Source of the DNA: Candidatus Kuenenia stuttgartensis
GTDB taxonomy: Bacteria; Pseudomonadota; Alphaproteobacteria; SMXS01
Direction: 5' to 3'
Length of the DNA: 64,000 bases
Assembly: GCA_943329845.2 (NCBI GenBank)
Contig: CALQFM020000009.1
Coordinates: 1 to 64,000 of the forward strand
Shown here piece by piece: positions 1,183-5,585 of the stretch. The position numbers were made by a program, and so were the translations under genes. Numbering within the stretch: the stretch's first letter is position 1; each line of letters starts with the position of its first letter. The notes beneath the pieces are model-generated. The model worked only from the letters and a program-made list of their open reading frames with translations. It searched no databases and was not told the origin of the DNA.

Positions 1183-2001
1183 ATGACCATCCGTCGCCTT
1201 CTAATGCCGCTGTTGGCCGCGGCTGTCTTTGCCCTGCCGGGCACCGCTGGCGCCTGGTCGCCGGAAGGACACCAGGTCATCGCCAGGATGGCGTCGCTCT
1301 ATCTTACCAAGAGCGCCAAGGCGCAGGTCGAGGATCTGCTGGACGGTCCCGCCGCCGACGCCATGGCCAAGGCATCGACCTGGGCCGACGAGATCGCCGC
1401 CAAGCGCCCCGAGACGAAGGCGTGGCACTACGTCAACATTCCCATTGCCGAGGGCAAGTACAATGCCGCGCGCGACTGCCCTGATGGCAATTGCGCCGTG
1501 GGCCGCATGGCCGCAGACATGAAGATCCTGGCCGACAAGACCCAGCCGGCCGAGAAGCGCGCCGAGGCCCTGAAGTTCCTCATCAACCTGATGGGCGAGA
1601 TCCACCAGCCGCTGCGCTGCGTGGACGACGGCCAGGATCACGGCCGCAACGTGAAACTGCAGTTCGGCGACAAGCACACCACCCTGTTCGATGTCTGGGA
1701 AAACGATATCGTCCGCAGCATGCAGGGAACGCCCGACCAGCTGGTCAGCCGCCTCAGCACCAAGATCAAGCCCGAGCACCGGAAATTCTGGGCTTCCGGC
1801 AGCCTCGTGACCTGGTGCGAGGAATCCGCCGGCCACGCCAAGGTGAATATCCACGACGACCTGTACGGCGCGGCCAAGCTGTCCAATGGCGAGTTGCTGA
1901 TGAGCGTGGAATATCCCGACGTGAAGCACCGGCTGGCCTCGGAGCTGCTCTCACGGGCGGCCGTGCGTCTGGCGGCGGCGCTGAACCTGTCGCTGAAATA
2001 G
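1183..2001 (+). CDS. secreted S1/P1 nuclease-like protein with substituted metal ligands
   Basis: The 272-aa protein has a signal peptide that would be cut after residue 24, leaving Trp25 as the mature N-terminus, as S1/P1 nucleases require (its amino group binds zinc). Ligands seen at the family spacing are W25, H30, D69 and H82. The rest are replaced: the H-x3-D-x-H-Q-P-L-H motif reads N135...E139...R145, and the NLHxxWD motif reads TLFDVWE (F169, E173). By P1 numbering this changes H116, D120, H126, H149 and D153. The fold is clear (MGEIHQPL, WHYVNIP). The protein may be catalytically altered, non-nucleolytic, or bind fewer metals. It stands alone, and a leftward gene begins its stop 1 bp beyond. 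Confidence 0.85.
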   Translation: MTIRRLLMPLLAAAVFALPGTAGAWSPEGHQVIARMASLYLTKSAKAQVEDLLDGPAADAMAKASTWADEIAAKRPETKAWHYVNIPIAEGKYNAARDCPDGNCAVGRMAADMKILADKTQPAEKRAEALKFLINLMGEIHQPLRCVDDGQDHGRNVKLQFGDKHTTLFDVWENDIVRSMQGTPDQLVSRLSTKIKPEHRKFWASGSLVTWCEESAGHAKVNIHDDLYGAAKLSNGELLMSVEYPDVKHRLASELLSRAAVRLAAALNLSLK

Positions 2002-2953: not shown

Positions 2954-3307
2954 CTAGCCCTGCGCGCCGCGGATTTCCATGGACTGGATCAGGCCGTCCA
3001 CGGCGCGGTAAACGTGGATCACGTCGCTGCGCGACAAGACGGCGCCCTCGAGGGCGCGCACGATCTGGTGGACATGCACGGCGGTGCGGCCATCGCTTTC
3101 CAGCGTGTAACCCATGGGCGTGACGGTTGGGTTGATCGCCGCCCATTGCCGCAGCCAGTAGTCTCGCACCGCGTCACGGCCATGGAGCCTGCCGCCCTCC
3201 CACCCGTTCGGCCAACTCACGTCTGGATGGAGGCACGCCAGCACCGCATCAATATCGCGTGCGTTGAAGGCGTCGTAGAGCGCGTTGATATCGATCATGC
3301 CGTTCAT
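2954..3307 (-). CDS. SnoaL/NTF2-like protein
   Basis: A 117-aa protein of the cone-shaped NTF2/SnoaL fold. The N-terminal helix carries the usual YDAFNARDIDAVLACLHPDV pattern, followed by a strand-rich half (DYWLRQW, VHVHQIVRA, VIHVYR). Family members are small isomerases, cyclases, dehydratases or simple ligand binders, so the reaction cannot be told. Its start overlaps the stop of the upstream GFA gene by ATGA, implying translational coupling. A second Met four codons in is possible but lacks the overlap. Confidence 0.75.
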   Translation of the reverse strand: MNGMIDINALYDAFNARDIDAVLACLHPDVSWPNGWEGGRLHGRDAVRDYWLRQWAAINPTVTPMGYTLESDGRTAVHVHQIVRALEGAVLSRSDVIHVYRAVDGLIQSMEIRGAQG

Positions 3308-3711
3308 CCGGGAAACCGCTCGAACGCCCGCACCCCGTCCGGGATCTGGTGGAAGTCCTGCTTGTCCTGGGTCCAGATGGCAAATTCCGGCCCGCCGAAC
3401 AGCGACGGGTCGTCGAACGTGCCGACCTTCAGCACGACGGCGCCGGGCCGGCGCGGCGTGCGGGTGAGGATATGGGTGCCGCACCCGGCGCAGAACTCGC
3501 GGGTGACCGGCGCGTCCAGATCGCTGCGCCTGAACTGCTTCGGTGCGCCGCTGGTATAGGCAAACCCGTCGGCCGGCATCACCATGAACACATTGGGCGA
3601 ACCGCCCGAAATGTACTGGCATTCCCGGCAATGGCACTGACTCCGGGCGATCGGCTCGCCTTCCGACACGTAGCGCAGCGCGCCACAGTAGCATCCACCT
3701 TCAATCCTCAT
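3304..3711 (-). CDS. GFA/CENP-V domain protein (paralogue)
   Basis: A 135-aa protein with the same cysteine pattern as the gene at 2521-2925: GGCYCG, CHCREC and CAGCGTH. The start at 3711 was chosen over an in-frame ATG four codons upstream because it aligns with the paralogue (MRIEGGCYCG against MKIEGGCYCG) and has GGAGG six bases before it. It is the first gene of a three-gene leftward unit, GFA, NTF2-like, GFA. It likely binds zinc and possibly acts on thiol adducts; the substrate is unknown. Confidence 0.85.
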   Translation of the reverse strand: MRIEGGCYCGALRYVSEGEPIARSQCHCRECQYISGGSPNVFMVMPADGFAYTSGAPKQFRRSDLDAPVTREFCAGCGTHILTRTPRRPGAVVLKVGTFDDPSLFGGPEFAIWTQDKQDFHQIPDGVRAFERFPG

Positions 3712-3824
3712 GTCGTCCTCCACTTGGCTGCTCGAGTCTAGCGACCTGGGGCGCAGAAAGCAGCCTTGCTTATTCCGGTCCTGCGCGACAGGCTACGGCT
3801 TCACGAAACTGGGGAGTACGTGGA

Positions 3825-4610
3825 ATGGGACAGCTTGACGGCAAGGTCGCGATCGTTACCGGCGCGGGCCGGGGCATCGGCAAGGCGACGGCGATCGCCT
3901 ATGCGCAGGAGGGCGCCAAGGTCGTCGTCGCGTCGCGGACGCAGGCGACGCTGGACGGCGTTGTGAAGCAGATCACGGAGGCGGGCGGCACCGCCATCGG
4001 CATCGCCTGCGACGTGGGCCACAAGGACCAGATCTTCGCCATGGTCGACAAGGCGGTGAAGGCGTTCGGCCCGATCGACATCCTGGTGAACAACGCGCAG
4101 GGCTTCGGCACCGAGGCCAACCCGCAGAAGTCGACCGTGTTCGTATCCGTGCAGGACACCGACGATGTCGAACTGGAATACACCTTCCGTACCGGTGCGC
4201 TGGCGTCGCTCTGGGCCATGCAGGCGGTGTACCCGTACATGAAGGGCCGCGGCGGCAAGATCATCAACTTCGCCTCGGCCGCCGGCATGACCGGCGATCC
4301 CGGCAATACCTCGTACAATATCGCCAAGGAGGCGATCCGGGTCATCACCCGGACGGCGGCGCGGGAATGGGGACCGGACGGCATCCAGGTGAACACAGTC
4401 AACCCGTTTTTGCGCACCGACGCATGGGAGAACTGGGAGAAGGCCCGGCCCGAGGACGTGAAGAAATACGCGGAATCGGTGCCGCTGAAGCGGCTCGGCG
4501 ATCCCGTGAAGGATGGCGGGCCGCTGATGGTGTTCATCGCCAGCGACGCCAATTCCTACATGACCGGCCACGACTTCAACCTGGACGGCGGCTGGGAGAT
4601 CCACGCGTGA
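3825..4610 (+). CDS. short-chain dehydrogenase/reductase
   Basis: A classical 261-aa SDR. It has the Rossmann motif TGAGRGIG (residues 13-20), DVG near residue 64, NNA (about 90-92), a Ser in FASAAG, and the catalytic pair YNIAK (Tyr and Lys four apart). The end GGWEIHA is short of usual cofactor-tail variants. It should oxidise or reduce an alcohol or ketone with NAD(P). Its stop overlaps the GTG start of the following NTF2-like gene (GTGA), and a third gene overlaps that one, so SDR and both NTF2-like proteins probably act on the same compound. Confidence 0.9.
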   Translation: MGQLDGKVAIVTGAGRGIGKATAIAYAQEGAKVVVASRTQATLDGVVKQITEAGGTAIGIACDVGHKDQIFAMVDKAVKAFGPIDILVNNAQGFGTEANPQKSTVFVSVQDTDDVELEYTFRTGALASLWAMQAVYPYMKGRGGKIINFASAAGMTGDPGNTSYNIAKEAIRVITRTAAREWGPDGIQVNTVNPFLRTDAWENWEKARPEDVKKYAESVPLKRLGDPVKDGGPLMVFIASDANSYMTGHDFNLDGGWEIHA

Positions 4611-5116
4611 GCACCGACAAGATCATCCTGGAACTGGCCGAGAAACAGGCGATCCACGAACTGATGGCGCACTATGCCGACCGCATCGATGCCAACGACC
4701 CGGCGGGCGCCGCGGCCTGTTTCGCCGAGGACGGCCTGGGCGTCTACTGGCAGGACTGTGTCGGCCCCAAGGCCATCGAGGATCGGCTGATCGGCATCCT
4801 CGACCGCTTCCACGCCACGTCCCATCACCTGAGCAACGTCCAGATTCGGCTGAATGGCGACACCGCGACCGCACAGGCCTATGTCTACGCCTTCCACCGG
4901 GTGAAGGCCGACATGGAAAACCCCATGCACTATTGGGGCCGATGGGTGGACGAGCTGGCCAAGGTCGACGGCCAATGGAAGTTCAAGCGCCGCGAGGTGG
5001 TTGGCATTGGCAGCATCAACCGGGGCGCGGACGACCTGGATCACCCGGGCCATCCGGGGCGCCTGTCGCGCGACGGCTCGGCGCCGGCCGATTTCCTGGC
5101 GAAGGCGGATGCCTGA
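4607..5116 (+). CDS. SnoaL-like (NTF2 superfamily) protein, tandem copy 1
   Basis: A 169-aa NTF2-fold protein of the SnoaL_4 type. Its N-terminal helices read AIHELMAHYADRIDANDP, followed by AAACFAEDG, then a conserved HHLSN (His pair near residues 66-67). Proteins of this type often accompany aromatic or steroid catabolic genes as dehydratases, isomerases or ligand carriers. The GTG start at 4607 overlaps the SDR stop. It ends inside the next gene by 8 bp. It differs from copy 2 mainly by a longer C-terminal tail. Confidence 0.8.
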   Translation: MSTDKIILELAEKQAIHELMAHYADRIDANDPAGAAACFAEDGLGVYWQDCVGPKAIEDRLIGILDRFHATSHHLSNVQIRLNGDTATAQAYVYAFHRVKADMENPMHYWGRWVDELAKVDGQWKFKRREVVGIGSINRGADDLDHPGHPGRLSRDGSAPADFLAKADA

Positions 5117-5585
5117 CATCGAGCGGATCGCCCGCGAGCTCGCCGACAAGACGGCCATCCACGCGCTGATGGAGCACTACGCCGACCGGATCGACGCCAA
5201 CGATCCGGCGGGCGCGGCCGCCTGCTTCGCCGAGGACGGCATCGGCGTCTACTGGCAGGACTGCGTCGGACCCAAGGCCATCGCCGAAAGGCTGACTGCC
5301 ATCCTCGCCCACTTCCACGCCACGTCGCACCATCTCAGCAACGTCCTGATCCGGCTGGACGGCGACACGGCGACGGCGCAGTCCTACGTCTACGCCTTTC
5401 ACCGGGTGAAGGCAGCCATGGACAAGCCCATGCATGTCTGGGGTCGCTGGGTCGATCGGCTGAAGAAGGTCGACGGCCAGTGGAAGTTCGCCCACCGGGA
5501 GGTGGTCAGCGTGGGAAGCATCGGCAGTGTCCGAGTGCCCAACGATCTGGACCATCCGGGGCATCCCGGACGGTTGGCGCGTTAG
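5109..5585 (+). CDS. SnoaL-like (NTF2 superfamily) protein, tandem copy 2
   Basis: A 158-aa protein that aligns with copy 1 nearly end to end (shared DRIDANDPAGAAACFAEDG, VYWQDCVGPKAI, FHATSHHLSNV). The two genes are thus a recent-looking tandem duplication. The ATG at 5109 overlaps the upstream stop by 8 bp. The pair may work as a heterodimer, because NTF2-fold proteins usually dimerise, or may have split in substrate use. The catalytic role is unknown. Confidence 0.8.
   Translation: MPDIERIARELADKTAIHALMEHYADRIDANDPAGAAACFAEDGIGVYWQDCVGPKAIAERLTAILAHFHATSHHLSNVLIRLDGDTATAQSYVYAFHRVKAAMDKPMHVWGRWVDRLKKVDGQWKFAHREVVSVGSIGSVRVPNDLDHPGHPGRLAR

Follow-up and report, generated by a model that had tools for sequence, protein, structure and literature searches.

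This analysis revealed that the gene at positions 1183 to 2001 on the forward strand of the window (the whole stretch of DNA analysed, 64,000 nucleotides) encodes a protein of the S1/P1 nuclease family in which the site of the third zinc ion has been replaced by other residues. The replacements are conserved among relatives of the same genus, they recur independently in other lineages, and the predicted fold is that of the S1/P1 nucleases. Our preferred reading, to which we give an even chance, is that of a secreted S1/P1-fold protein with a rebuilt site, where an arginine-acid pair stands in for the third zinc and which most likely serves as a periplasmic binder of phosphate esters or nucleotides without normal three-zinc turnover. 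Given that the change is kept by relatives and is seen in two further lineages, it probably reflects a new job rather than a broken gene.

The frame is uninterrupted and encodes 272 amino acids, and the assignment as an S1/P1 nuclease-like gene rests on the frame, a profile match, a structural model and structure comparison. Residues 25 to 271 match PF02265 (E 9e-44) with 150.7 bits against a curated cut-off of 29.5, and a profile search found this to be the sole match to PF02265 within the source genome. NCBIfam returned no match at E 0.001 for either the 272-residue protein or an intact relative, L120. The relatives of solved structure are SmNuc1, AtBFN2, S1, P1 and tomato nuclease entries. 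In named records, the nearest relatives (81-88% identity) come from three MAGs, two under the label Rhizobium sp. Q54 and one under Sphingomonadales bacterium, and the proteins of those three records are those of the genus genomes G001, G004 and G002. By inspection, positions 1183 to 1254 (+) encode a putative signal peptide ending in AGA directly before W25, so that the mature chain is predicted to begin at Trp25; the Ala-Trp junction recurs in the genus members whose sequence covers the start. In the S1/P1 family it is the main chain of the N-terminal tryptophan that binds metal, and the sequence reads as a leader followed by this tryptophan as first mature residue. From its leader, the protein is predicted to be exported.

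All active-site residues described here lie on the forward strand. Structure and family alignments place W25 (1255-1257) at Trp1 of P1, the N-terminal backbone metal ligand, H30 (1270-1272) at His6 and H82 (1426-1428) at His60. The alignments and the S1 paper place D69 (1387-1389) at P1 Asp45, equivalent to Asp65 of S1, the general base. These four residues are kept. In the family alignment, N135 (1585-1587) takes the place of His116 and E139 (1597-1599) that of Asp120. At the third zinc, R145 (1615-1617) replaces the ligand His126, F169 (1687-1689) replaces the ligand His149, and E173 (1699-1701) stands at the ligand Asp153. The motifs align without gaps, the family LIH..GD....QPLH and LH..WD corresponding to LIN..GE....QPLR and LF..WE in our protein. 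The nine-residue cluster of a functional three-zinc nuclease is therefore incomplete, with H116N, H126R, H149F and Glu for two Asp residues. The preliminary description had listed the same four residues as kept and the same five as substituted, and alignment with solved S1/P1 structures and with other S1/P1 proteins upheld every one of these assignments. The same site holds changes that had not been listed. A72 (1396-1398) occupies the position of the family Lys/Arg (Lys68 in S1, Arg74 in SmNuc1), which is R or K in 117 of the 125 other rows of the family alignment and A, E or V in 7/7 genus members. H153 and R155 (1639-1647) replace the nucleoside-site glycine and asparagine (S1 Gly152 and Asn154) in the family alignment. 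Y83 and N85 (1429-1437), the base-binding residues of the nucleoside site (Tyr89 and Asn91 in the SmNuc1 paper and in the family alignment), are kept.

With regard to the identity of the lost zinc, the account of S1 has the attacking water activated between Zn1 and Zn2, with Asp65 (P1 D45) as base, places His168 on Zn3 and describes Lys68 as not critical for the mechanism (PMC5201275). Counted along the structure alignment, S1 His168 is the equivalent of P1 H149. In the SmNuc1 study, O3' contacts Zn3 (PMC11705217), and according to a review, Zn1 and Zn2 lie 3.2 Å apart and are bridged by a hydroxide (PMC6393734). The AtBFN2 paper has the water at the nucleophile position bridging Zn1 and Zn3, with the 3' end on Zn2; it also describes a cluster of nine residues (one Trp, three Asp and five His) whose strong conservation in the S1/P1 family reaches into the superfamily (PMC4144908). 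Zinc numbering differs between these papers, and both schemes put the lost zinc on the leaving-group side, which rules out the lost site as the holder of the attacking water. The lost site, H126/H149/D153, is that of the zinc on the nucleoside or leaving-group side, which contacts the nucleotide 3' oxygen. Each remaining ligand was presumed to belong to the zinc that it binds in the P1 structure. On this assignment, the protein keeps all of the water-activating pair (W1, H6, D45, H60, H116 and D120) except His116, with Glu swapped for Asp. The losses are non-random: the third zinc has been removed, the nucleoside site has been remodelled, and of the six ligands that hold the other two metals, five are unchanged or exchanged acid for acid. 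Such a pattern fits a rebuilt site better than a site that is simply dead.

The weight of each change can be judged from the invariance of the ligands across the family. S1/P1 proteins pooled from overlapping surveys gave 136 aligned rows, 11 of them variants and 125 outside the variant group. The alphaproteobacterial survey had matches in 21 of 385 genomes, the phylum-wide one in 56 of 398, the gammaproteobacterial one in 38 of 368, and that of the order holding the nearest intact relative in 39 of 96; smaller searches of the source genome's own order and of family f15 were added. Every search included 14 control genomes, of which one, that of Caulobacter vibrioides, matched PF02265, below the cut-off. 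In one alignment, a single copy of each identical core was retained and matches above E 1e-5 were discarded, which leaves the short fragment L036 unrepresented; the weak matches in G1084 and G906 were left out of the gammaproteobacterial survey, where 29 of 30 new loci yielded a row. The 125 other rows contain one gene twice (L080 and L180) and one fragment (L037), and 30 rows from viral contigs are kept apart from them. Wherever scored in these 125 rows, H6, D45, H60, H116, H126 and H149 show no variation. Asp is found at D120 in 123 of 124 rows and at D153 in 121 of 124, with D153E in the otherwise intact L032, L091 and L189, and D120E in the otherwise intact L065. The count of five replaced ligands out of nine in the preliminary description is thus right in that all five changes are real, but it needs to be reweighted: as the Asp-to-Glu exchange is seen in relatives with every histidine, two of the five are mild, and the serious losses are the three histidines. 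The nucleoside-site Gly is present in 117 and the Asn in 115 of the 125 other rows. Among the nearest intact relatives, all 28 newly scored loci are canonical at all nine positions; they come from 48 matches listed for that order, which also include three already scored elsewhere (L015, L016 and L031 of G013) and 17 weaker, unscored ones.

Within the genus, one copy is present in each of the seven genomes, and none in three other genomes of the family. Both third-zinc histidines are missing from all seven copies, with R and F at those positions in six. The five closest copies read N-[E/D]-R-F-E (in the order H116, D120, H126, H149, D153). L010 reads G-D-R-F-D and has His for D45, and L011 reads H-D-N-Y-E, so that its six core ligands are complete and the third site alone is lost. 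In both phylogenetic trees, L011 splits off first and L010 next; by parsimony, the third-zinc histidines would have been lost first, H116 thereafter, and D120 would have changed to Glu last. C146 (1618-1620, +) and C212 (1816-1818, +) occur together in six of the seven genus members and are both absent from the seventh (L008); among 107 rows, the pair is found in none of the 100 others, two of which have C146 alone. This suggests a putative genus-specific disulfide beside R145. As seven genomes carry the change, a sequencing error or a single odd genome is ruled out.

These copies also bear on the possibility of a relaxed or decaying gene without function, which we regard as very improbable. 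The S1/P1-like protein evolves much faster than its neighbours: in five genomes its identity is 84, 81, 74, 47 and 47%, against 98, 98, 97, 85 and 89% for the adjacent SDR protein. This pace, which we also count against our preferred reading, would fit decay, as would the second-family S1/P1 copy L037 of genome G332, which matches only the first 107 model positions. However, dN/dS is 0.05-0.19 in the ten pairs formed by the five close orthologues, indicating purifying selection and making decay unlikely (the values of 0.49-0.73 against L010 and L011 were set aside, as synonymous sites there are near saturation). None of the seven genus copies has an internal stop, the one in G004 beginning at a contig end; the query and L010 share the new residues at 47-48% identity, and the leader and core ligands are kept. 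The earlier suggestions that the reading frame is intact and that the substitutions do not reflect decay are therefore supported, the latter by the seven genus copies, the dN/dS values, the kept N-terminal Trp and core ligands and the recurrence in two other lineages. Of the two alternatives named in the preliminary description, a pseudo-enzyme and a new metal use, the sequence is compatible with both. The same changes do recur in orthologues, as had been proposed for a check: the third-zinc histidines are absent in 7/7, and N, R and F are present in the five closest.

In five genus genomes, those for which the context was read, the S1/P1-like gene is adjoined by GFA-family and SDR genes, which supports orthology. 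In the window, a small Ion_trans_2 ion-channel protein is encoded on the reverse strand at 2003-2527, with a start chosen by us; the gene is convergent and ends one base beyond the S1/P1-like gene, and its frame is matched in two of the five contexts (L151 and L152). Two proteins of the GFA family (glutathione-dependent formaldehyde-activating type) are encoded at 2521-2925 and 3304-3723 (-), with a SnoaL-like gene between them, and two adjacent SnoaL_4 proteins in tandem at 4604-5116 and 5115-5585 (+), beside the SDR gene, look like a local duplication. The neighbours (ion channel, GFA, SDR and SnoaL-like) offer no functional hint.

Comparable changes were found beyond the genus. In a second alphaproteobacterial family, L035 reads N-D-R-F-D, and L027 and L033 read N-D-Y-R-D, with Tyr at H126 and Arg at H149; L018 and L041, other copies in genus g208 of this family, have intact ligands. 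Genome G332 combines two zinc-variant copies with the further copy L037, whose match covers 107 of 258 model positions. In a gammaproteobacterium (G867, the sole genome sampled from its order), L187 reads N-D-R-L-E and lacks H6 and D45 as well. None of the 11 variants has His at H126 or H149, and D or E is present at D153 and at D120 in every case. H6 is kept in 9/10, D45 in 9/11, H60 in 11/11 and the N-terminal Trp in all ten that cover it. Arg occupies one of the two vacated histidine positions in 10 of the 11, L011 being the exception.

A three-zinc site that has been relocated, with H153 or a nearby Asp as new ligands and normal nuclease activity, is an improbable explanation of this pattern. 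H153 is new, lies close in sequence to the lost site and is present in six of the seven genus members and in L035, but it is absent from L011, L027, L033 and L187. Moreover, bulky residues, Arg and Phe, now fill the substituted positions, and the motifs align without gaps.

The number of origins was assessed with two trees, built from 57 of 79 rows with 11 active-site columns masked and from 38 of 138 rows with 13 masked, after divergent, fragmentary and surplus rows had been left out. With the AU test, which assumes that a group is named before the tree is seen, and with a long-branch warning at L187 and L186 in the second tree, forced clades were rejected for the genus with all second-family variants (p-AU 5e-9), the genus with L035 (1e-4), the genus with L187 (1.6e-4) and L187 with the second-family variants (3.6e-4). 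One shared origin of the genus change with the other variants is thereby ruled out (p 5e-9 to 4e-4). A single origin of the three second-family (g208) variants is compatible with the tree (p-AU 0.63), and three origins were therefore counted rather than four. It follows that H116N together with H126R probably arose three times. As N, R, Y and L are each one base from His codons, part of this convergence may reflect mutational ease. With somewhat less than even confidence, we propose that an arginine took the place of the third zinc, together with Asn for His116, independently in three or more lineages, converting a three-zinc nuclease into an arginine-assisted phosphoester-handling protein, with one or two metals or metal-free, and with a new ligand.

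In our preferred reading, the third zinc, which in P1 sits at H126/H149/D153 and contacts the nucleotide 3' oxygen, would be gone, and R145, which probably pairs with E173 and packs against F169, would supply positive charge in its stead. The W25 N-terminus, H30, D69, H82, E139 and the weaker ligand N135 would form a pocket that could still retain one or two metal ions. In the nucleoside pocket, the stacking Tyr is kept and H153 and R155 are gained; together with R145, this pocket would probably bind a phosphate ester or a nucleotide in the periplasm. If the arginine charge, balanced by the acid at 153, replaces the third zinc in this way, normal three-zinc nuclease turnover is probably lost. 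Several observations were counted against this reading, namely Gly at H116 and His at D45 in L010, and the lack of Arg at either vacated position in L011. In L187, where H6 and D45 are lost, N116 and R126 also occur with a core that is probably metal-free, which is likewise counted against it and points, at least for this lineage, to a binder without metal.

The main rival, which we consider possible if doubtful, is that the protein is still an enzyme: a two-metal phosphoesterase acting on a changed substrate, with the arginine taking over from the third zinc in stabilising the leaving group, N135 and E139 as metal ligands and D69 as general base. Asn can serve as a metal ligand in dinuclear phosphoesterases. 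The nucleophile-activating pair and the general base (S1 Asp65, D69 here) are mostly kept, the pair being entire in L011 with its six intact core ligands, and the N-terminal Trp is kept in each of the ten variants covering it. Nevertheless, H116N and D120E weaken the core, the general-base Asp is lost in L010 and L187, and the family Lys/Arg is gone from all seven genus members.

A phage or plasmid source found no support: searches with the protein itself gave no match in phages or in viral contigs, and the 44 plasmid records matched were all below 60% identity. When the query was widened to an alignment, 30 S1/P1 relatives turned up in viral contigs, 29 of them canonical at all nine positions and one a fragment without the last two. 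No report of zinc-variant S1/P1 proteins was found in the open-licence literature among the matches listed; the fold family is known, and the variant without the third-zinc histidines appears to be new. Proteins with most of the water-activating pair and without the third zinc would reveal what the third zinc does, and would also show whether Arg can substitute for a metal and by what route binding proteins might emerge from an enzyme family. They also call for caution in annotation, as the Pfam profile scores this protein far above the nuclease-family cut-off despite its incomplete zinc cluster.

The model of the mature protein reached a pLDDT of 95.8 and a pTM of 0.93, with metals absent from the model. 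Its alignment comprised 25 rows (the query, three genus relatives and 21 rows from viral contigs), so that intact relatives dominate the model input. Compared with S1, it gave a Z of 31.9 and an rmsd of 1.8 over 240 residues, with a Z of 31.2 for P1, such that S1, AtBFN2 and P1 are tied under the rule of the comparison tool; the claim that the fold is well preserved accordingly holds for the predicted structure. The protein thus resembles the S1/P1 nucleases (8QJL, SmNuc1; 5FB9, S1; 1AK0, P1; 3W52, AtBFN2) in its predicted fold over the mature chain, its N-terminal Trp, four kept ligand residues and the base-binding Tyr and Asn. It differs from them in the absence of H116, H126 and H149, in Glu for D120 and D153, in the lack of the Lys/Arg at position 68 and in His and Arg for the nucleoside-site Gly and Asn. 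The zinc-dependent phospholipase C of B. cereus (PC-PLC, 1AH7) has a related fold and Glu as a characteristic residue at the D153 position, but our protein is far closer to S1/P1 (Z 31.9 against 16.5, the latter over 208 residues) and the third-zinc His is absent from it. A parallel from outside the fold is the PHP domain of E. coli Pol III, which is unrelated in fold to S1/P1. That hydrolase domain is reported to have been retained after losing metal-coordinating residues (PMC3666897), whereas the protein described here has lost mainly the ligands of one metal out of three, and an arginine stands in its place.
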